A DNA stretch of 64,000 bases from Telluria aromaticivorans (GTDB taxonomy: Bacteria; Pseudomonadota; Gammaproteobacteria; Burkholderiales; Burkholderiaceae_D), in NCBI RefSeq assembly GCF_013003915.1, contig NZ_JABAIV010000003.1:124001-188000 (forward strand). The letters run 5' to 3'. A model generated the notes under the pieces. It had not been told where the DNA came from and ran no database searches. It worked only from the letters and a program-made list of their open reading frames with translations. Shown piece by piece: positions 43,919 through 53,415 of this stretch. Each line of letters begins with the position of its first letter. Within the stretch, counting starts at the first letter, position 1. A program made the position numbers and the translations under genes.

Positions 43919-43946
43919 CATGACCATGCAACCAAGGAGAACGGCA

Positions 43947-44435
43947 ATGAAAACGGCAGCGCGCGTGAAACCCGGCGACCCGGGTGTCAAGAGGCTGGAC
44001 GAGTTCCTGTGCTTCGCGATCTATTCGACCAACCTGGCGCTGGGCAAGGCCTACAAGCCGGTCCTGGAGCAACTCGGCCTGACCTATACCCAGTACATCG
44101 CCATCATCGCGCTGTGGGAAGAGGACGACCAGACCGTGACGGGCCTGGGGGAAAAGCTGTTCCTGGAATCGAATACCCTGACCCCCATCCTCAAGAAACT
44201 CGAGGCGATGGGTTATGTGCGGCGCCAGCGCGACCCCAGGGACGAACGCCAGGTGCGGGTCGGGCTGACCGAGGCTGGGCACCGGCTGCGCCTGAGCGCA
44301 CTGGGCAAGGGCGTGGTGTCGGAAACCCGCTTCACGCCGGAGCAGTCGGCCGAACTTCACCGCACCCTGGTCACCCTGCGCGCCAACCTGCTGGAGAACG
44401 CCGGCAGGTACGAGAAGGCGCCGGCAGCGGATTAA
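43947..44435 (+). CDS. ohrR: MarR-family peroxide sensor OhrR
   Basis: 162 residues from the ATG at 43947 (AAGGAG upstream). The OhrR-specific redox Cys is present in EFLCFAIYSTNLALGKAYKP near residue 23, followed by LGLTYTQYIAIIALWEED and the winged-helix wing RRQRDPRDERQVRVGLTEAG. OhrR represses ohr until organic peroxides oxidise this Cys. The gene lies between the MFS gene and the OmpR/HK pair; ohr itself is on the opposite strand beyond the MFS gene. Confidence 0.85.
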   Translation: MKTAARVKPGDPGVKRLDEFLCFAIYSTNLALGKAYKPVLEQLGLTYTQYIAIIALWEEDDQTVTGLGEKLFLESNTLTPILKKLEAMGYVRRQRDPRDERQVRVGLTEAGHRLRLSALGKGVVSETRFTPEQSAELHRTLVTLRANLLENAGRYEKAPAAD

Positions 44436-44480: not shown

Positions 44481-45221
44481 ATGCGCGATACTGACCACGT
44501 GCTGGTGGTGGACGACGACCGCGGCATCCGCGAGCTGGTCTGCGCCTACCTCGAAAAACAGGGCCTGCGTACCACTGCGGCCGCGGACGGGCGCGAAATG
44601 CGCGCCGTGCTGCAGCGCTTCACCCCGGACGCCATCGTGCTCGACCTGATGCTGCCCGGCGACGACGGCCTGGTGCTGTGCCGCGAACTGCGGGCCGGCA
44701 AGCACCGCACGGTGCCGATCCTGATGCTGACTGCGCGCGACGAGGAATTCGACCGCGTGGTCGGGCTCGAAATCGGCGCCGACGACTACATGCCCAAACC
44801 GTTCTCGGTGCGCGAACTACTGGCGCGCATCCGCGCCGTGCTGCGCCGCACCCGCATGCTGCCGCCCAACATGCAGCTGACCCAGGCCGCCACCCTGCTC
44901 GGTTTCGGCGAGTGGCGGGTCGACACCGTGGCGCGCCACCTGCTCGACGCCGACGGCGTCGCGGTGCCGGTCAGCGGCGCCGAATACCGCCTGCTGCGCG
45001 TCTTCCTCGACCATCCGCAGCGCGTGTTGACGCGCGACCAGTTGCTGGAACTGACCCACGGCCACGACGCCGACCAGTTCGACCGCTCGATCGACATCTT
45101 GGTCAGCCGCCTGCGCCAGCGCCTGCGCGACGGGGCGCGCGAGCCGCGCTACATCAAGACCCTGCGCAACGAGGGCTATGTCTTTGCCAGCCCGGTCGAG
45201 CTGCTCGAAAGCGCATCATGA
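44481..45221 (+). CDS. OmpR-family response regulator
   Basis: 246 residues from the ATG at 44481, with GGAGG upstream. Receiver with Asp55 (IVLDLMLPGDDG) and Lys in YMPKPFSVRE; C-terminal winged helix (~140-240) with VPVSGAEYRLLRVFLDHP, SIDILVSRLRQRL and TLRNEGYVF. It overlaps the kinase start by four bases (ATGA). It is a good candidate to control the bufferin operon 1.5 kb downstream, whose upstream region carries spaced direct octamers of the kind OmpR proteins bind. That assignment is inferred. Confidence 0.9.
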   Translation: MRDTDHVLVVDDDRGIRELVCAYLEKQGLRTTAAADGREMRAVLQRFTPDAIVLDLMLPGDDGLVLCRELRAGKHRTVPILMLTARDEEFDRVVGLEIGADDYMPKPFSVRELLARIRAVLRRTRMLPPNMQLTQAATLLGFGEWRVDTVARHLLDADGVAVPVSGAEYRLLRVFLDHPQRVLTRDQLLELTHGHDADQFDRSIDILVSRLRQRLRDGAREPRYIKTLRNEGYVFASPVELLESAS

Positions 45222-46543
45222 AGCCGCTGCGCGCGCTGCTGGCCCGCCTGGCGCCGCCCAGCCTGTTCGCGCGCCTGTCGCTGATCCTGGTGGCCGGGCT
45301 GACCGCGGCCCAGCTGTTGTCGGCCACACTCGCCATCGGCGAGCGCGACGAGGTGAACATGGGCGCGATGATCGATACCGTCGAGGTCGACCTGCGCGCT
45401 GCCGTCGCCCTGCTCGACCGCCTGCCGCGCGCCGAGCGCGCCGCCTGGCTGCCGCAACTCGAACGCAGCGGCTACCGTTTCCTGCCTGGCACCGGCCAGT
45501 CCGGCCCGCCGGTAGAAGCGGCGCTGTCCACCCGCCTGCTGCGCTCGGCCACACGGGCGCTGACCCCCGGTTATGCTTTCAGCGCGCATGCGCTGGCCGG
45601 TCCGCGCGAACGTTTCCAGCTGCACCTGCAGCTGGCCGACGGAGATCCGCTCACGATCGAGTTCCGGCCGCGCCCCGGCCTGCCATTGTCGCCCTGGCTG
45701 CCCTATGTGCTGGGAGCGCAGCTGGCGCTGGTGGCGCTGAGCTGCTGGCTGGCCGTGCGCCTCGCCACCGCCCCGCTGCGCGCGCTGGCCGAAGCCGCCG
45801 ACGCGCTGGGCCCCGACCTGCGCCCGGCCGAGCTGCCGGAACACGGGCCGTCCGAAGTGCTGCGTGCCACCCGCGCGCTGAACGCCATGCAGCGCCGTAT
45901 CGCCGGCTATGTCGACGAGCGCCTGCGCATCCTGGCTGCGATCTCGCACGACCTGCAAACCCCGATCACCCGCATGCGCCTGCGCATCGACCTGGCCGAC
46001 GACCCGGCACTGCAGCAGAAACTCGGCGCTGACCTGTCGGAGCTGCAGCACCTGGTGCGCGAAGGCCTGGACTATGCCCGCGCGATGCACGGCAAGCTGG
46101 AACCGGCCTGTCCCCTGGACCTGGCCAGCCTGCTCGACAGCATCGCGCTCGACTACCGCGACGGCGGGGCCGCCCTGTGCCTTGCCGCCCCGCCCGGGGC
46201 CATCGTCCACACCCGGCCGAAGGCCCTGCGCCGCATCGTCTGCAACCTGGTCGACAACGCCCTCAAGTATGCCGGCCAGGCAGAGCTGGTACTCGATTGC
46301 GGGGTGCCGGGAGCGCCCGTGATCCGCGTGCTCGACCGCGGGCAGGGCATCCCCGAAGACATGCTGGAAGCCGTGTTCGAGCCCTTCTACCGGCTCGAAA
46401 GCTCGCGCAACCGCGAGACCGGCGGCACCGGACTGGGACTGGCCATCGCGCGCCAGCTGGCCGCCGCGCTACCGGCCGAACTGACCCTGCACAACCGCCC
46501 CGGCGGCGGACTCGAGGCCCGCCTGGTGCTGCGCGCCGCCTGA
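45218..46543 (+). CDS. Membrane sensor histidine kinase, partner of the OmpR regulator
   Basis: 441 residues. Two membrane helices (~20-42 and ~165-185) bracket a ~120-residue periplasmic domain without a named fold. HAMP follows, then HisKA with His244 (AAISHDLQTPITRMR) and the ATPase domain (NLVDNALKYA, LDRGQGIP, GTGLGLAIARQL). This is the EnvZ/RstB-like class. The stop is 163 bases before the bufferin operon. The signal is unknown; copper or other metal stress would fit the next operon. Confidence 0.9.
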   Translation: MKPLRALLARLAPPSLFARLSLILVAGLTAAQLLSATLAIGERDEVNMGAMIDTVEVDLRAAVALLDRLPRAERAAWLPQLERSGYRFLPGTGQSGPPVEAALSTRLLRSATRALTPGYAFSAHALAGPRERFQLHLQLADGDPLTIEFRPRPGLPLSPWLPYVLGAQLALVALSCWLAVRLATAPLRALAEAADALGPDLRPAELPEHGPSEVLRATRALNAMQRRIAGYVDERLRILAAISHDLQTPITRMRLRIDLADDPALQQKLGADLSELQHLVREGLDYARAMHGKLEPACPLDLASLLDSIALDYRDGGAALCLAAPPGAIVHTRPKALRRIVCNLVDNALKYAGQAELVLDCGVPGAPVIRVLDRGQGIPEDMLEAVFEPFYRLESSRNRETGGTGLGLAIARQLAAALPAELTLHNRPGGGLEARLVLRAA

Positions 46544-46597
46544 TGCGCGCGGCGCCGCGGGCGGCGCCTTTGTTTCCGAATATGTCCAGTCCGGGCG

Positions 46598-46706: not shown

Positions 46707-47039
46707 ATGCACAAGATCACCACCAGCCTCTTCCTGCTGGCGCTCGCCCTCGGCGGCGCCGCCCAGGCCGCACCCGCCGCCACCGGTCCCGACGTCGGCC
46801 CGGTCGGCACCGGCGCCATTGCAGAACGCGTCCTCGAGGTCAAGGCCAACACCCGCTACCTCAACGTCAGGAACGGCGAGACCGTCGCCATCCGCCAGGG
46901 AGAACGCAGCGTCACCTGGTTCGTGCAGGCCGCGCCAAACGTCACCGTCGTCCCCCTGTCGCGCATCCTGCCGCGCGACGGGAGCGGCCAGGAGGTCCTG
47001 GTCTACATCGCCGCGGGCCCGCAATACCTCGATTTCTGA
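46707..47039 (+). CDS. CzcE-like periplasmic protein
   Basis: 110 residues from the ATG at 46707. Signal peptide ends at AAQA (~21). The mature chain fits the CzcE family core: [32 protein letters not shown] and the last strand [14 protein letters not shown] (landmarks). CzcE binds copper in the periplasm of Cupriavidus. It is the first gene of the operon with two bufferin precursors, which supports a metal role. Confidence 0.75.
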
Positions 47040-47094
47040 CAGCCGATCCGCCCCGGGCAGTTTTTTTCTACATTCCCACCTTCAGGAGAACACC

Positions 47095-47364
47095 ATGCAC
47101 CCTACCCGCGCCGCCTTTGCCGCCGCCTTTGCCCTGAGCCTGTGCGCCGCCGGCGCCCATGCCGCCGACGTCAAGAAACCGATGGAGAAATGCTACGGCG
47201 TCTCGCTCGCCGGCCATAACGACTGCGCCGCCGGCGAAGGCACGTCCTGCGCCGCCACCTCGGTGTCCGACTACCAGGGCGATGCCTGGACGCTGGTCGA
47301 AAAAGGCAGCTGCACCACCATCAAGACCCCCAAGGGCTACGGCTCGCTGACCCCGCGCAAGTAA
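47095..47364 (+). CDS. bufA1: Bufferin-type RiPP precursor, DUF2282 (BufA1)
   Basis: 89 residues. A Sec signal peptide ends near AHAA (24) and acts as leader. The mature core has the four conserved Cys of DUF2282 at 33, 44, 52 and 73 in [25 protein letters not shown] and VEKGSCTTI. In characterised systems the DUF692 enzyme modifies such Cys and the exported peptide binds copper. It lies upstream of the matching bufB/bufC genes, with an exported hydrolase-fold gene nine bases after it. Confidence 0.88.
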
Positions 47365-47373
47365 GGACGCCGC

Positions 47374-48120
47374 ATGAACGCTTTTGCTTCCCTGATGCTG
47401 GCCGCCGCCGTGTTCGCGCCGGCCCTGGCCCAGGCCGCGCCGGCCGACACGAAGAACGTCGTGATCGTCCCCGGCACTTTCATCGACGGCGCCAGCTGGC
47501 GCGTGGTGCACGACATCCTCCGCCACAAGGGTTTCCAGGTAACCGTTGTGCCGCTCTCCCACGACACGCTCGAGGAAGACATCGCCGCCACCCGGCGCGT
47601 GCTGTTCAACCAGTTCGGCAAGGTCGTCCTGGTCGGCAGCGGCATGGGCGGCACGGTGATCGGCCATGCCGGCGAAGGCGCCAAGGTCAAGGCCCTGGTG
47701 TACGTAGCCGCGCTGGCGCCGCAGGTCGGCGAAAACAGCGGCCAGCTGCTCGGCGCAATCCCCGCGGAGCCGGTGGCCAGGCCCGACTGGGCAGGCTATT
47801 ACTGGGCCGACCGCGCGCGCTTCCACCAGAACTTCGCGGCCGACCTCACGCCCAACCGGGCCGCCTTCCTGGCAGCCTCGCAAGTGCCGACCACCCAGGC
47901 CTTCGTGTATGCACCGGCCTACGCCGCGGCGTGGCGCGACAAGCCCAGTTACGCGGTGGTCGCGACCAATGACCGGTTCCTGCACCCGGACACGCAACGC
48001 ATGATGTACAAGCGGGCCCGCGCCCGCACCATCGAGATCGCATCCAGCCACGCGGTGCAGCTGTCGAACCCGGAAAAGGTGGCCGCGCTGATCGAGCAGG
48101 CCGCCGTTGACACCCTCTGA
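47374..48120 (+). CDS. Exported alpha/beta-hydrolase-fold protein lacking the nucleophile
   Basis: 248 residues with AAGGA upstream. The signal peptide ends at AQAAP (~22). The chain follows the small esterase type (VPGTFIDGASWRVVHDIL; VALVYVAALAP-like stretch; SSHAVQLSNPEKVAALIEQAA). The nucleophile elbow, normally GHSxGG, reads GSGMGG (88-93): Gly90 stands where Ser should be, while the late His is kept. It should therefore not be a normal esterase. It sits between the two precursor genes, in the periplasm, so a binding, chaperone or metal-site role is possible. Confidence 0.75.
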   Translation: MNAFASLMLAAAVFAPALAQAAPADTKNVVIVPGTFIDGASWRVVHDILRHKGFQVTVVPLSHDTLEEDIAATRRVLFNQFGKVVLVGSGMGGTVIGHAGEGAKVKALVYVAALAPQVGENSGQLLGAIPAEPVARPDWAGYYWADRARFHQNFAADLTPNRAAFLAASQVPTTQAFVYAPAYAAAWRDKPSYAVVATNDRFLHPDTQRMMYKRARARTIEIASSHAVQLSNPEKVAALIEQAAVDTL

Positions 48121-48173
48121 TCTCCCCGGTGCCGCCTGGCGGCGCCAACCACCCACCTGAAAGGAACAACACC

Positions 48174-48443
48174 ATGAATATTTCCACCTCTTCGCGCGTC
48201 GGCAAGGCCGGCGCCATCGCCCTGCTGGCCCTGGCCGCCCTCGGCATGTCCAATCCGTCCGTCTCGGCAGAGAAGGAAAAGCCGGGCCGCTGCTATGGCA
48301 TCAACAACTGCAAGGGCGAAAGCCTGTGCGCCACTGCCAAGAACGACTGCAAGGGCCTGAACGACTGCAAGGCCCAGGGCGTGCTGGTCAAGACCCCGAC
48401 CGAGTGCAAGGCGCTGGGCGGCACCGTCACCGAGAAGGAATAA
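48174..48443 (+). CDS. bufA2: Second bufferin-type precursor, six-Cys (BufA2-like)
   Basis: 89 residues from the ATG at 48174 (AAGGA upstream). A signal peptide runs to about residue 32 (NPSVSA). The mature peptide has six Cys at 40, 46, 52, 59, 65 and 78 in the repeated pattern GRCYGINNCKG, SLCATAKNDCKG, NDCKAQG. This is the pattern of the BufA2 group, distinct from DUF2282. Having both types in one operon with one modifying enzyme is unusual. It lies 64 bases ahead of bufB. Confidence 0.8.
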   Translation: MNISTSSRVGKAGAIALLALAALGMSNPSVSAEKEKPGRCYGINNCKGESLCATAKNDCKGLNDCKAQGVLVKTPTECKALGGTVTEKE

Positions 48444-48507
48444 GCAAGCCAGGCCCGCCTGGCAAGCAGGCGGGCCTGTTCGCAACCGCATTTTTCGCGA
48501 GGCACCC

Positions 48508-49353
48508 ATGCCGGCATTTCCCTCCCCTCCGGTCTTCTCCGGCTTCGGCCTCGGCCTGCGCCGCGAGCACTATCCGGATTTCCTCGATACCGACGTCGCG
48601 GTCGACTTCGTCGAAGTCACCTCCGAAAACTTCATGGTGGCGGGCGGCCAGCCGCGCCACATCCTGCGCCAGGTACGCGCGCGCCATCCGGTGGTGCTGC
48701 ACGGCGTGTCGATGTCGATCGGCTCCAGCGACGGCCTGCGCCGGGATTACCTGGAGCGCCTGCGCGCCCTGGCCGACGAGATCGAGCCGCTGTACGTCAC
48801 CGACCACCTGAGCTGGTCGCGCATCGACGGCTTCAATTCGCACGACCTGCTGCCGCTGCCGTATACCGCGGAAGCACTCAGCCTGGTCTGCAGCAATATC
48901 AACATGGCCCAGGACGCGCTGGGGCGCGCCATGCTGTTCGAAAATCCTTCCAGCTACCTGCAGTTTCCCGGCGCGATGAGCGAATGGGAATTCCTCGCCG
49001 CGATGTGCCGGCGCACCGGCTGCGGCCTGCTGCTGGACGTGAACAACCTGGCCGTGAGCGCCGCCAACCACGGCTTCGACCCGTTCGCCTTTCTCGACGG
49101 GATCCCGGCCGGGCAGGTGCACCAGATCCACCTTGCGGGTCACAGCAGGAGCGGCGACTTGCTGGTCGATACCCATGACGGCCCGGTGTCCGCCGCGGTG
49201 TGGGCGCTGTACGCGGAAGCGCGCACGCGCTGCGGCCCGGTGGCGACCATGATCGAGCGCGACGCGGCAATCCCGCCGCTCGGCGAGCTGCTGGCCGAGC
49301 TCGATATAGCCCGCGCCCTGGAGCGCGCCGCACCCCTCGCGTGGGAGGCATGA
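48508..49353 (+). CDS. bufB: DUF692 multinuclear iron oxidase (BufB/MbnB family)
   Basis: 281 residues. A TIM-barrel enzyme of the MbnB family; metal ligands and pocket motifs are in place: LHGVSMSIGS, YVTDHLSW, LFENPSSYLQF, LLDVNNLAVSAANHGFDP, HLAGHS, DTHDGPV and MIERDAAIPPLGEL. The family uses two or three irons and oxygen to convert peptide Cys to thio-oxazole or oxazolone-type groups. It probably acts on both precursors just upstream. It overlaps bufC by four bases. Confidence 0.9.
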   Translation: MPAFPSPPVFSGFGLGLRREHYPDFLDTDVAVDFVEVTSENFMVAGGQPRHILRQVRARHPVVLHGVSMSIGSSDGLRRDYLERLRALADEIEPLYVTDHLSWSRIDGFNSHDLLPLPYTAEALSLVCSNINMAQDALGRAMLFENPSSYLQFPGAMSEWEFLAAMCRRTGCGLLLDVNNLAVSAANHGFDPFAFLDGIPAGQVHQIHLAGHSRSGDLLVDTHDGPVSAAVWALYAEARTRCGPVATMIERDAAIPPLGELLAELDIARALERAAPLAWEA

Positions 49354-50105
49354 TGCTGCGCGACCTGCAACGCGACTTCCGCCTGTGGCTGGTCACCGGC
49401 GAGGCTGCCGCGGCGGCGCGCCTGCCCGCAGCGCACAGTGCCGGGCTCACGGTTTACCAGAACAATTACCGGGCCCAGCTCGTGGGCTGCCTGCGGGCCT
49501 CGTATCCGCTGCTGCGCGCCCGCATGGGCGAGGACGCCTTCCTGCACGCGGTCATCAAGCACATCGGCGCCTTTCCGCCGTACGAATGGACGCTGGACGC
49601 CTATGCGCAGGATTTCGGCGCCACGCTCCAGAAGCTGTTTCCCGATAACCCCGACCTGCACGAACTGGCCTGGATCGAACTGGCGCTCGGTTCGGCCTTC
49701 GTGGCAGCCGATGCCGCCCCGCTGACCCCGGCCGCCCTGGCCGCACTCGACTGGGACGGCATGCGCCTGGGACTCACGCCCAGCCTGCGCCTGGCGCGGG
49801 CCCTGACCAATGCCGCCGATGTCTGGCACGCCATGTCGGACGCCGGCGCAGCGCCGGAAGCGGCCATGCTGGCCGAGCCAGGATGGCATGTGGTCTGGCG
49901 CAGCGGTTTTGTGTCCTGCCTGAGGGCGGCTGACGCGCTCGAGGGCCAGGCGCTGGCCGCGCTTGCGGCACAGGGCAGCTTCGCCGGCATCTGCGACTTG
50001 CTGGCCGAACGCCTGGGCGAAGACGCGGGCGTGGCGCGCGCCGGCGCCTTGCTGGCCGACTGGATCGGGGCGGGACTGGTCACGGACGCGTCAAGCACGC
50101 CGTGA
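49350..50105 (+). CDS. bufC: DUF2063 partner protein (BufC)
   Basis: 251 residues from the ATG at 49350, overlapping the bufB stop (ATGA). The N-terminal DUF2063 domain has the hallmark LTVYQNNYRAQLVGCLRASYPLL followed by AWIELALGSAFVA (landmarks), with a looser C-terminal half. DUF2063 proteins bind the leader or precursor and deliver it to DUF692 enzymes. It is essential in related systems; here there is one copy for two precursors. Confidence 0.88.
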   Translation: MMLRDLQRDFRLWLVTGEAAAAARLPAAHSAGLTVYQNNYRAQLVGCLRASYPLLRARMGEDAFLHAVIKHIGAFPPYEWTLDAYAQDFGATLQKLFPDNPDLHELAWIELALGSAFVAADAAPLTPAALAALDWDGMRLGLTPSLRLARALTNAADVWHAMSDAGAAPEAAMLAEPGWHVVWRSGFVSCLRAADALEGQALAALAAQGSFAGICDLLAERLGEDAGVARAGALLADWIGAGLVTDASSTP

Positions 50106-50140
50106 ACGCACGCCTCTTCACTTCGCATCGAGGACCCACC

Positions 50141-50959
50141 ATGCACGAATCTTTTCTCCTGCGGCGTCATTTCCTGCGCCAGGCGGCCAGCCTGGCGGCC
50201 TTCGCCTTGCCGGCACTGCCTTCGGTCGCCGCCCTGCCCGGCGCCGGCGGTGCGCCCGTGGCCGCCGAACGGGTATCGACCGGGCTGCTGGAAATGGCCT
50301 ATTTCGCCGCCGGCCCCGCTGACGGGCGCCCGGTGGTGCTGGTGCACGACTTCGGCTACGGCATCGACAGCTTCGCCACAAGCGCGCCGCTGCTGGCCGC
50401 TGCCGGCTTGCGGGTGCTGGTCCCGCAGCTGCGCGGCCATGGCGCCACCCGCTTCATCGATGCCGGCACGCCGCGCTCGGGTCAGCAGGCTGCGCTCGGC
50501 AAGGACCTGCTTGACTTCATCGACGCCCTGCACATTCCGGAAGCCGTCTTCGCCGGCTCCGGCTGGGGCGCCCATGCCGCCTGGGCGGCCTCGCGGGTGC
50601 GCCCGACGCGCTGCGTCGGCCTGGTACTGGCCGGCGCCGGACGCATCGACCATACCGGCCCGCGCGAGCGCTACCTGTATGCCAGCGCGGCCGGCCGGCG
50701 CGCATTGGAACGCAGCGCGCCAGGCCGGGACAACCCGGATTACGCCCGCGTCGTCGCGCACGCCTGGCTGTCGCGCCACGCGCCGGCCAATCCGGACGCG
50801 GCTCCCGATCCGCGCTACGCCGCGCTGGAGCGCCGCTTCACCCAGCCGCCGGCCAGCGCCACGGCGGCCATCGTGCTGGAAGGCGGCGCCATCGCGGCGC
50901 CGCCTGCCTTCGCCGACGCCGTGCTCGCCCTGGTGCGGATCGGCACATGGCGCACCTGA
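50141..50959 (+). CDS. Tat-exported alpha/beta-hydrolase-fold pseudoenzyme
   Basis: 272 residues from the ATG at 50141; a GTG at 50102 is less likely. The N-terminus has a twin-arginine signal (LRRHFLRQAASLAAFALP). The fold matches epoxide hydrolase/dehalogenase-like proteins (VVLVHDFGYGIDSF, VPQLRGHGAT), but the elbow reads AGSGWGAHAA (Gly141 in place of the Asp or Ser nucleophile). The C-terminal region (VLEGGAIAAPPAFADAV) has Ala where the catalytic His belongs. Two of three catalytic residues are missing, so an enzyme role is unlikely. It follows bufC by 35 bases. Confidence 0.75.
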   Translation: MHESFLLRRHFLRQAASLAAFALPALPSVAALPGAGGAPVAAERVSTGLLEMAYFAAGPADGRPVVLVHDFGYGIDSFATSAPLLAAAGLRVLVPQLRGHGATRFIDAGTPRSGQQAALGKDLLDFIDALHIPEAVFAGSGWGAHAAWAASRVRPTRCVGLVLAGAGRIDHTGPRERYLYASAAGRRALERSAPGRDNPDYARVVAHAWLSRHAPANPDAAPDPRYAALERRFTQPPASATAAIVLEGGAIAAPPAFADAVLALVRIGTWRT

Positions 50960-50991
50960 TCCATCCATCTTTGCACAAGGAGAACACCCAC

Positions 50992-51447
50992 ATGAACGCC
51001 ATTTCAATGCAGCGCGCCGCGCGCCTGCTTCCACCCTCGGTCCTGCTGCTGCTGGCGCGCACCGCGGCGGCCACGACTTTCTGGCGCGCCGGACGCGCCA
51101 AGGTCGACGGCCTGTTTACCATCAAGGACGCCACCTACCAGCTGTTCGAGTACGAATACCAGTTGCCCCTGCTCCCGCCGGAGACGGCGGCCCAGCTGGC
51201 GACCGTGTCGGAACACCTGTTCCCGCTGCTGTTGCTGCTCGGCCTGTCCACGCGCCTGTCGGCCCTGGCCCTGCTGGGGATGACGGCGGTGATTCAGGTA
51301 TTCGTCTACCCGGCTGCCTGGCCGACCCACCTGGGCTGGGCGGCGCTGCTGCTGGCGCTGGTGGCACGTGGCGGCGGGGCCATCTCGCTCGACCATGCTT
51401 TCGCGCGCGCTCCGGCGCCGGCTAACGAACGCAGGAGTGCGCGATGA
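50992..51447 (+). CDS. DoxX-family membrane protein
   Basis: 151 residues from the ATG at 50992 (AAGGAG upstream). Four membrane helices, with the DoxX features RLLPPSVLLLLARTAAATTFWRAGRAK and LFPLLLLLGLSTRLSALALLGMTAVIQ (landmarks only). DoxX proteins are frequent in bufferin clusters, where they may move electrons or serve maturation or transport at the membrane. The role is inferred from context. It overlaps the next gene by four bases. Confidence 0.85.
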   Translation: MNAISMQRAARLLPPSVLLLLARTAAATTFWRAGRAKVDGLFTIKDATYQLFEYEYQLPLLPPETAAQLATVSEHLFPLLLLLGLSTRLSALALLGMTAVIQVFVYPAAWPTHLGWAALLLALVARGGGAISLDHAFARAPAPANERRSAR

Positions 51448-51830
51448 GCCGCCCCCCTCGCCGCCACCTGGGGCGCAGTTGGACGGCAGGGCTGGTGCTG
51501 GCCCTGTCCGGGACGGCGCAAGCCGGCGAGGAGGTCTGTGGCGGGGGCCAGTGCGGCGCCACCGCCATCGCACCGGCGCTGCTGCGCAAAGCCGTGACCG
51601 GCGCCCTGCAAGAGGCGCCGGTGACGCCACAACCTGCGCGCAAGCTGGCGCAGCCGGCCGCCACCGCGTGGAATAGCCGCTTCACCCCGGTGGCCGGGCA
51701 AGAAGCCTATGACTGCGCGCTCAGTTTCGGCATCGGCGCCAGCCTGGGCGACAACTTCCTGGCTACCCGCCTGCTGGGACGCACCCGGGTGTGGCGCGAA
51801 GGCGCCAAGGGCCAGATGTCCTCCGATTGA
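51444..51830 (+). CDS. Exported protein of unknown function, last gene of bufferin operon
   Basis: 128 residues. A signal peptide ends around GTAQAG (~28), followed by a short Cys motif (VCGGGQCG) and one more Cys near residue 90. The C-terminal part YDCALSFGIGASLGDNFLATRLLG resembles no family I can name. The ATG overlaps the DoxX stop, so it belongs to the operon, and a terminator follows 19 bases after its stop. Confidence 0.6.
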   Translation: MSRPPRRHLGRSWTAGLVLALSGTAQAGEEVCGGGQCGATAIAPALLRKAVTGALQEAPVTPQPARKLAQPAATAWNSRFTPVAGQEAYDCALSFGIGASLGDNFLATRLLGRTRVWREGAKGQMSSD

Positions 51831-51849
51831 GCCGCACGCAGGCAGCAAA

Positions 51850-51882
51850 AAAGGCGGCGATACCAGATCGCCGCCTTTTTTT
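51850..51882. terminator. Bidirectional terminator between convergent operons
   Basis: 12-bp stem (AAAGGCGGCGAT / ATCGCCGCCTTT), 5-base loop, with A-run before and T-run after. It ends the bufferin operon on the + strand and the thioredoxin/cupin operon on the - strand. Confidence 0.85.
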
Positions 51883-51907: not shown

Positions 51908-52981
51908 TCAGCCGAAGGTAAAGGCGTAGGCCTCGGCGCCGCGGTCGAGGAAACGGATCTCGAAGCGGCGCTGGCGCACGCCGCTTTGGCGCACCAGCTG
52001 GTACAGGCGGGTGCCGTCGATCACGCCCTCGCCGGCGGCATCGATGTCGCTGCCGTGGTCGGCGCCGGGCGCCTTGCCATCCAGGGTGACTCGGATGCGC
52101 AGCTTGCGTCCCGGCTCGCCTGGGCCAAGCACAAGGTGCAGGTCGCGCGCGCTGAACTGGTGCGCGATCGCAGCGCCCGCTTCCAGCGCCTGCGCGCTTT
52201 CCGCGCCGACCTGCCAGCGCCCGGCCAGGCCCCACTCGTTGAGCGCCAGCCGCCCCACGGTGTAGGACTGGGCCACGCCGGCGCGCAACCGTTCCGGCGA
52301 GCGGAAATTGTCGGCCTTGCGGTAGCCGACATAGGTTTCCCCGGATGCGATGCTGCCGGCGTCGGGCGCCATCTGTTCGCCGCGGGCAATTGGCGCGACC
52401 AGGCTGGTGTCGCTAAGGGGCGCGCCGCGCTGTTCGGCCAGCAGTGCCTGGATCGCGCGCTCCATCTTGTCGAAGTCGCCCTCACCGAACTGGTGGTAGC
52501 GGATCCGGCCTGCGCCGTCGACCAGGTAATAGGCCGGCCAGTAGCGGTTGCCCCAGGCGCGCCAGATCGCGTGCCGGCTGTCGACCGCCACCGGAAAATC
52601 GATCTGGAAGCGCTTCAGCGCCGCATTCACGTTGGCCAGGTCCTCTTCGAACCGGAACTCGGGCGTGTGCACGCCGACCACCGCCAGGCCCTGGTCACGG
52701 TATTTCTGCGCCCAGGCGCGCACATAGGGAATGGTGCGGATGCAGTTGATGCACGAGTAGGTCCAGAAGTCGACCAGCACCACCTTGCCGCGCAACTGCG
52801 CGGGGCCGAGGGGCGCAGAGTTGAGCCAGGTGGTGGCGCCTGCGAAACCGGGCGCCTTGCCTTCGACCTGCAGGGCGCCGGGGCCGTCGGCGGCGCTGGT
52901 CGGGCTGGTGGCAGCCACCAGCGCCGCCAGGGCGCAGGCCGTGGCGAAGGTCCAAACCGCGGCGCGTATGCGTCGTTTCAT
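51908..52981 (-). CDS. Exported thioredoxin-like protein (DipZ-type C-terminus)
   Basis: 357 residues from the ATG at 52981 (AGGAGG upstream). The signal peptide ends near SAA (~31). A redoxin domain (40-190) has an active CxxC at Cys77/Cys80 in DFWTYSCINCIRTIPY and YYLVDGAGRIRY. A ~150-residue C-terminal domain matches the end of DipZ proteins (RLYQLVR... RRFEIRFLDRGAEAYAFTFG). It should reduce or shuffle disulfides in the periplasm. It lies 17 bases after the cupin gene, in the same operon. The shared upstream repeats suggest joint control with the bufferin genes. Confidence 0.85.
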   Translation of the reverse strand: MKRRIRAAVWTFATACALAALVAATSPTSAADGPGALQVEGKAPGFAGATTWLNSAPLGPAQLRGKVVLVDFWTYSCINCIRTIPYVRAWAQKYRDQGLAVVGVHTPEFRFEEDLANVNAALKRFQIDFPVAVDSRHAIWRAWGNRYWPAYYLVDGAGRIRYHQFGEGDFDKMERAIQALLAEQRGAPLSDTSLVAPIARGEQMAPDAGSIASGETYVGYRKADNFRSPERLRAGVAQSYTVGRLALNEWGLAGRWQVGAESAQALEAGAAIAHQFSARDLHLVLGPGEPGRKLRIRVTLDGKAPGADHGSDIDAAGEGVIDGTRLYQLVRQSGVRQRRFEIRFLDRGAEAYAFTFG

Positions 52982-52998
52982 GTGTCCCTCCTGTGCGC

Positions 52999-53415
52999 TT
53001 ATTTCGAGGGCTGGTCGAGGACCAGCACCGGCTTGTGCTTGTCGACCACATAGGTCGCCAGTTCCGATGCAATGCCGCCGCCCAGGTTCCTGGCCGAGTG
53101 GACTGCGCCGGCCGGGATATACAGCGACTGGCCCGCCTTGAGGGTGATGGGCTTGCCGTCGACGACGTATTCGATCGCCCCTTCCAGCACGTAGGCGATT
53201 TCCACGCCCGGATGGGAGTGCTTCGGGAAGGCCACGTGCGGCCCGAAGTCGACCTTCACCTGGAGCGCCTCGCGGCCGCCATCGAAGGCGTGCCGCACCA
53301 CCTCGGTGCGGCCGATACCGTTGGCGTCGAGCTGCTGCGCCATCGCGGCGAGCGGGCATGCGATCCCCGCTGCCAGTGCGAGCGCCAGTGCGCCCTTCAA
53401 TCCATATGCGTTCAT
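52999..53415 (-). CDS. Exported cupin protein
   Basis: 138 residues from the ATG at 53415 (AAGGGGAA upstream). Signal peptide to MAQ (~26). One cupin barrel with both motifs: KHSHPGVEIAYVLEGAIEY with two His and a Glu as metal ligands, and PAGAVHSARN with the third His. It probably binds a divalent metal in the periplasm. It is the first gene of the two-gene operon with the thioredoxin-like protein. Confidence 0.8.
   Translation of the reverse strand: MNAYGLKGALALALAAGIACPLAAMAQQLDANGIGRTEVVRHAFDGGREALQVKVDFGPHVAFPKHSHPGVEIAYVLEGAIEYVVDGKPITLKAGQSLYIPAGAVHSARNLGGGIASELATYVVDKHKPVLVLDQPSK

Follow-up and report, generated by a model that had tools for sequence, protein, structure and literature searches.

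Bufferin 1 clusters (DUF2282-MNIO-DUF2063-DoxX) are known from Caulobacter vibrioides and, as gig operons, from Cupriavidus and Legionella. They hold one precursor class, the DUF2282 protein Buf1, together with a multinuclear iron enzyme of the MNIO (DUF692) family, its DUF2063 partner and a DoxX protein. Bufferin 2 clusters comprise a six-Cys BufA2 precursor (Buf2), an MNIO and a DUF2063 protein. The captophorins fontiphorin, oxazolin and gonophorin derive from EGKCG-repeat precursors and likewise involve an MNIO with a partner of the DUF2063 class (PME1); thiooxazoles are the expected products, and no cluster with two precursor classes was found in the available text of that report (PMC13097082). 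Bufferin clusters with tandem precursor genes have been noted, and the possibility that a single MNIO pair acts on more than one precursor has been raised as an open question (PMC12452194). A putative cluster of Pseudomonas fluorescens, 'Pep4', was listed in 2021 as DUF2282 peptide, DoxX, hydrolase, short peptide, DUF692, DUF2063 and hydrolase (PMC8719888). Telluria aromaticivorans carries, on a 64,000-nucleotide stretch of contig NZ_JABAIV010000003.1 (positions 124,001 to 188,000; the window), an operon in which one MNIO maturase (BufB) and one DUF2063 partner (BufC) stand beside both a Buf1 and a Buf2 precursor. It is quite probable that in this dual-bufferin cassette one BufB/BufC pair matures Buf1 and Buf2 into copper-chelating periplasmic peptides, which work with accessory envelope proteins.

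The operon consists of nine closely packed genes on the plus strand: czcE-like, buf1, hyd1, buf2, bufB, bufC, hyd2, doxX and an orphan exported gene (Table 1). The intergenic gaps measure, in order, 55, 9, 53, 64, -4, 35, 32 and -4 bases. The genes that the original prediction had placed in one operon are all present; apart from the orphan exported gene, which has no family, their profile scores lie above the Pfam or NCBIfam cut-offs, and BufB passes the NCBIfam model of the MNIO maturase. The order buf2-bufB-bufC is the bufABC order of bufferin clusters, with the DUF2063 partner after the MNIO. The NCBIfam HvfC model is not reached by BufC (11.2 bits, cut-off 142). DoxX passes PF07681 and stays below the HvfX-type cut-off (NF050144, 48.1 bits vs 80).

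The arrangement recurs across bacteria. One genome per species was scanned with five cassette BufBs as queries; this yielded 335 relatives, and the best 80 were kept. Each trimmed locus profile combined the window sequence with those of two to four relatives. Among these best 80 of 335 relatives, Buf1 occurs in 77 loci, Buf2 in 78 and both in 76, BufC in all 80, DoxX in 76, Hyd1 in 69, Hyd2 in 44 and CzcE in three. The window and 76 of the 80 thus pair a single MNIO with two precursor classes rather than one. This is the operon composition that had been predicted. Four loci (loci are numbered L, genomes G) do not have both precursors. In L070 and L093 the MNIO lies close to the end of the contig; L134, a metagenome bin, has only Buf2; the fourth is L079. 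The 76 dual loci display 14 strings of gene content and order, or eight gene orders once gene absences are ignored, and because the precursors stay together through all eight, their linkage survives rearrangement. In eight loci from Sphingomonas, Novosphingobium and Sphingobium, buf1-doxX runs on the strand opposite to the adjacent buf2-bufB-bufC. Since the gene set recurs across genera, the operon is not a product of chance. A comparison with 36 other MNIO loci, among them 20 that span only 4-5 kb, found neither a Hyd1 or Hyd2 match nor both precursors above 40 bits in any.

Not every gene belongs to the recurrent set. CzcE, present in the window, is optional. The exported protein without a family, earlier counted as a component of the operon, is encoded in only one of 145 genomes of the same family, its own, and has one 54-bit match among the 80 loci, on the opposite strand of L078. 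It therefore falls outside the conserved set and is probably a local addition. The edge of the cassette clade is not sharp, and the dual arrangement may reach beyond the 80 loci. In a phylum-wide sample, the BufBs of L156 and L158 (G442, G543) score 423 and 433 bits against the cassette profile, and the accompanying Buf1 proteins reach 114 and 119 bits. Buf1 and Buf2 lie within the same 3 kb, a stretch with no hydrolase match.

A whole-genome MNIO search was submitted for 50 of the 80 loci and covered 49 genomes. Exactly one MNIO was observed in 11 of them. Each of these eleven, which the precursor counts cover, encodes one DUF2282 protein and one BufA2 over the cut-off, both at the cassette and both with all core Cys; weak BufA2 matches in five of the eleven fall on the DUF2282 gene. 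The genomes belong to Cupriavidus, Pseudomonas, Luteibacter, Novosphingobium, Sphingomonas, Sphingobium and an Oxalobacteraceae strain. With one MNIO, one Buf1 and one Buf2 in the genome, one enzyme must serve both precursors, if both are modified. The suggestion that a single enzyme serves two core types is supported by these genomes together with the 76 dual loci.

Both precursors have a signal-like N-terminus, by eye a putative Sec signal peptide. Mature Buf1 bears Cys at residues 33, 44, 52 and 73. All 78 aligned Buf1 rows retain these four core Cys, and all 79 aligned Buf2 rows retain six, the window included each time. The description of the two classes as unrelated went too far. Window Buf1, like other DUF2282 proteins, weakly matches the BufA2 profile (E 0.0023), and a profile comparison of Buf1 with Buf2 gave a probability of 94.5% for the full proteins and only 25.9% for the mature parts, so that their relation is remote and unsettled. 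The leaders of Buf1 and Buf2 from the cassettes (76 pairs) are the more alike, with a mean of 36.2; for leaders of single precursors (18 Buf1, 12 Buf2) the mean is 27.3, and mixed comparisons give 28.3 and 30.8. The likeness of the within-cassette pairs lies above all 2000 shuffles; in an earlier form of the comparison, which failed for single Buf2, two of 2000 shuffles reached it. Such likeness would fit recognition of both precursors by one BufC, and shared ancestry may also explain it. Tyr or Phe follows the first Cys in 79 of 79 cassette Buf2 rows, and a C[Y/F]G motif is common to both precursors. As a cassette signature this motif was rejected, being present in 10 of 32 non-cassette Buf2 as well. 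Further variants of precursor number were seen: two BufA2 genes lie less than 0.5 kb apart within one locus in L175, L176 and L178 (G392, G409, G479), and in G200, G482 and G532 a single reading frame seems to hold two adjacent six-Cys matches.

By analogy with studied relatives, a pathway can be proposed for the cassette. The BufC-BufB complex, formed by the DUF2063 partner and the multinuclear iron MNIO, would bind the signal-peptide/leader region of both precursors in the cytoplasm. BufB would oxidise core Cys to 5-thiooxazoles, acting on the central Cys in Buf1 and on several of the six in Buf2. Both peptides would then be exported by Sec and chelate copper, possibly also other soft metals, in the periplasm. 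The family chemistry of MNIO/partner clusters supports this dual-bufferin reading (PMC12452194, PMC13097082). DoxX, CzcE and the hydrolase-fold proteins would act as accessory envelope proteins, the part of the hydrolases being conjectural. Control by the adjacent two-component system is probable and equally conjectural.

The place of the enzyme was read from an MNIO tree of 69 rows, comprising 33 cassette enzymes (32 of the 80 loci and the window), 21 Buf1-type, 12 Buf2-type and three others. The cassette MNIOs form one group with a support of 100/99. Another 100/99 branch separates the 21 Buf1-type MNIOs, while the 12 Buf2-type enzymes and the three others fall on the cassette's side. As one group, the Buf2-type MNIOs are supported by only 66/70. 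Cassette DoxX and Buf1 score higher with the Buf1 clusters L150 and L151, whose MNIOs group with the Buf1-type clade, than with the other Buf1 clusters compared; these two loci are candidate donors of buf1-doxX. The simplest reading is a mosaic, in which a Buf2-type buf2-bufB-bufC core would have taken over the buf1-doxX pair from a Buf1 cluster; it is based on a DoxX tree that came from a short search, is moderately supported and does not unite the cassette sequences in one clade.

Several points weigh against maturation of both peptides by one enzyme. The 38 other genomes of the 49 searched have two to five MNIOs, and completeness is not given for the 49. The 80 relatives are not independent counts, because they form one related set, some share a genome (L059 and L079, L064 and L074, L068 and L110, L105 and L122), and L056, L059, L079 and L129 coincide with L035, L037, L038 and L036, respectively, the sources of search profiles. 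The leader likeness is confounded by relatedness and taxon sampling. Some precursors may stay unmodified (PMC12452194). That both peptides are modified and that they bind copper is carried over from studied relatives. A promoter scan of the region found no sigma-70-type promoter. The C[Y/F]G motif outside the cassette and the state of the DoxX tree count on the same side.

Table 1. Features of the operon and of its surroundings in the window.
Feature	Position	Strand	Evidence
OhrR-like MarR regulator, upstream of two-component genes, possible co-regulator	43920..44435	+	
OmpR-type response regulator, possible operon regulator	44481..45221	+	PF00072, PF00486; >300-bit homologue in 17/80 loci
Sensor histidine kinase partner	45218..46543	+	>50-bit homologue in 21/80 loci
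Terminator-like hairpin between kinase gene and operon, 7 G-C pairs then TTTGTTT	46551..46568	+	
CzcE-like exported protein, first operon gene	46707..47039	+	PF16986 60.5 bits, cut-off 30
Buf1 (DUF2282) precursor	47095..47364	+	PF10048 79.4 bits, cut-off 22.4
Hyd1, exported alpha/beta-hydrolase-fold protein	47374..48120	+	PF12697 68.1 bits, cut-off 26.3
Buf2 (BufA2) precursor	48174..48443	+	NF050166 78.1 bits, cut-off 60
BufB, MNIO maturase, 281 aa	48508..49353	+	NF050167 360.1 bits, cut-off 310; PF05114 344.5
BufC, DUF2063 partner protein	49350..50105	+	PF09836 53.4 bits, cut-off 27.2
Hyd2, exported, epoxide-hydrolase-like	50141..50959	+	PF00561 32.8 bits, cut-off 25.8
DoxX-family membrane protein	50992..51447	+	PF07681 62.2 bits, cut-off 23.6
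Exported protein without family, overlaps doxX stop codon	51444..51830	+	no family match
Redoxin/thioredoxin-like protein, convergent, just downstream of operon	51908..53359	-	Thioredoxin_10 C-terminal domain

The surrounding genes bear on the stress to which the cassette responds. It may mainly answer oxidative or organic-peroxide stress, with peptides that limit copper-driven radical chemistry and with copper buffering as a secondary function; this is doubtful as the chief role, and compatible with the dual-bufferin reading. The regulator at the head of the region has OhrR as its best NCBIfam match (NF052638, 115.1 bits, below the cut-off of 200). Homologues above 50 bits accompany five of the 80 loci (L055, L056, L059, L061, L118), but the other 75 have no OhrR match within the stretches covered. 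OsmC-domain proteins lie near the cassette in 21 of the 80 loci, 14 of them from Dyella/Luteibacter, while no OsmC match above 50 bits was found in the stretches covered of the other 59; these counts are rough, the query having begun at a mis-called start. Such clusters have been linked to oxidative stress (PMC13097082). CzcE in the window speaks for metal instead, as do the sigmaF and NrsF genes of eight loci, sigmaF being tied to heavy-metal stress (PMC3511200). Regulators differ by lineage, and metal and oxidative stress are likely their themes. The hairpin in front of the operon has weak support, since the region has seven terminator-like sites and its shuffled versions average 3.5. A gene of the formamidase/acetamidase family lies near the cassette in nine of the 80 loci (e.g. 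L061:9874-11205), directly after hyd2 in L061, L062 and L073.

It is unlikely that only Buf2 is a substrate of the cassette BufB, with Buf1 remaining an unmodified metal-binding or redox Cys protein or being modified by another MNIO where one is present. The position of the cassette MNIOs on the Buf2 side of the tree is in favour of such a restriction, and so are the unmodified precursors raised in PMC12452194. The residue after the catalytic MNIO Asp has been linked to substrate choice, and an Asp there to Cys-Lys substrates (PMC13097082). This site holds Asp in 11 of 12 Buf2-type enzymes and mostly Thr (14 of 21) in the Buf1-type. In the cassette set (81 aligned rows), Asp occurs 57 times, Ala 13, Gly 10 and Glu once. 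The Asp of these 57 rows agrees with Buf2 as the substrate, but window BufB has Ala. A change from Asp to Ala or Gly was rejected as a mark of cassette enzymes, given Asp in 57 of 81 rows; the Ala of the window is a local state. The 11 genomes without another MNIO nevertheless keep Buf1 with all four Cys, which speaks against an enzyme confined to Buf2. Locus L079 (= L038) does so as well, with a cassette-clade MNIO and Buf1 and no Buf2 match; however, it may be a decaying copy, as Hyd1 and Hyd2 are cut short and the genome has other MNIOs and a full cassette.

Modification in trans was considered for the window itself. The T. aromaticivorans genome encodes two MNIOs, two DUF2282 proteins and one BufA2. 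The second MNIO (C20:287183; L039:6872-8806), of the Buf1 type, shares an open frame of 645 residues with a DUF2063 domain, an apparent BufB-BufC fusion. It could act on window Buf1 in trans, a further point against a shared maturase. The original prediction regarded a second DUF692 dedicated to one precursor as its refutation. A second enzyme does exist, but it adjoins its own DUF2282 gene; it therefore looks like a complete Buf1 locus and not like the missing partner of the window operon. In the same family, BufA2 exceeds the cut-off in 15 of 145 genomes, at 16 places. At four of these places (the window, G094, G067, G052), BufA2 is preceded at a distance of about 1 kb by a DUF2282 gene and followed by one MNIO, and the gene between DUF2282 and BufA2 is hyd1 each time. 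G052 has a second cassette, L038, described above.

An accidental co-location of two functionally uncoupled bufferin modules, which came together when metal-resistance genes were transferred, would agree with the single clade of cassette MNIOs, explicable by one joining event, and with BufB relatives at 60-80% identity in 12 plasmid records, but it is most improbable, as linkage and all Cys persist through eight gene orders in several proteobacterial classes and no Buf1-type MNIO stands beside cassette Buf1.

Hyd1 [Table 1] was modelled with a predicted local distance difference test (pLDDT) score of 87.6. The best PDB matches of the model are the pyrethroid hydrolase PytH, SABP2 and hydroxynitrile lyases, and a PDB sequence search with Hyd1 gave no match. 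The nucleophile elbow of window Hyd1 reads GSGMG; Gly replaces the Ser of an active Ser-Asp-His alpha/beta hydrolase, while His and Asp are kept. Of 70 rows, 46 have Ser at the nucleophile position, 15 have Gly and nine have Asp, and 69 retain the Asp and His of the triad. Hyd2 has a twin-arginine-type N-terminus (RRHFLR, by eye) and resembles epoxide hydrolases (best PDB match 5bov, E 5.6e-30). The Asp nucleophile is kept in 27 of its 45 rows and the catalytic His in 24; the window has Gly and, in the His column, a gap. Relatives of Hyd1 and Hyd2 thus range from intact to degraded. Given Gly at the nucleophile in both proteins and the missing His of Hyd2, window Hyd1 and Hyd2 are probably inactive as hydrolases. 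Pseudomonas Hyd1 has Ser in 24 of 25 rows and is therefore probably active there; the remaining one is L093, where the stretch covered contains no Hyd1.

The closest printed precedent is Pep4, whose gene list and order equal those of 22 of the 80 loci, a likeness judged by the list alone. In the available text of PMC8719888 it is only listed, the second peptide being given as 'no conserved domain', and neither a reading as two bufferins with one enzyme nor a distribution beyond the studied strains is offered. The window differs in that doxX follows hyd2 and not buf1, and it adds CzcE and the two-component system. With Bufferin 1 clusters the window shares the Buf1 class, the MNIO with DUF2063 and DoxX. 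They differ in having one precursor class and an MNIO of another clade, and none of the 21 Buf1-type loci has a Hyd1 or Hyd2 match. With Bufferin 2 clusters it shares a BufA2 above the cut-off and the side of the MNIO tree; the 12 Buf2-only loci have no match to cassette Buf1, Hyd1 or Hyd2, and 11 of them carry Asp where the window MNIO has Ala. A hydrolase-bearing cassette, or Buf1 and Buf2 in one cluster, is not mentioned in the available text of PMC12452194, and the dual cassette is not described in the available text of PMC13097082, PMC5413113, PMC8692599 or PMC12538549. No discussion of the hydrolase-fold genes of this cluster type was found in the literature searched. The original prediction held that the system may not have been described. 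This stands for the interpretation, as a reading with two bufferins and one enzyme was not found in these texts, and not for the gene list, which had been printed as Pep4, or for the idea of several precursors, raised in PMC12452194. By its gene content, the dual cassette appears to be a variant of known bufferin systems and not a new system, listed in print with no explanation found.

A tentative extension, which will rather not hold, is an obligate bufferin pair made by one maturase, e.g. as copper sites of two affinities, as a relay of capacity and affinity or as a periplasmic hetero-complex. The hydrolase-fold proteins would then be partners of the modified peptides and, in several lineages, non-catalytic scaffolds or carriers. 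If true, this would be, to our knowledge, the first metallophore made of two peptides that share an MNIO maturase and are accompanied by co-opted pseudo-hydrolases. For the dual-bufferin cassette as such, the comparison extends the data available for the hydrolase-fold genes found in such clusters, and its BufB enzymes differ naturally among themselves at the specificity site described in print. The question of one MNIO and several precursors (PMC12452194) becomes directly testable in genomes with one MNIO, one Buf1 and one Buf2. The cassette would show how a maturase of ribosomally synthesized and post-translationally modified peptides gains a second substrate family.

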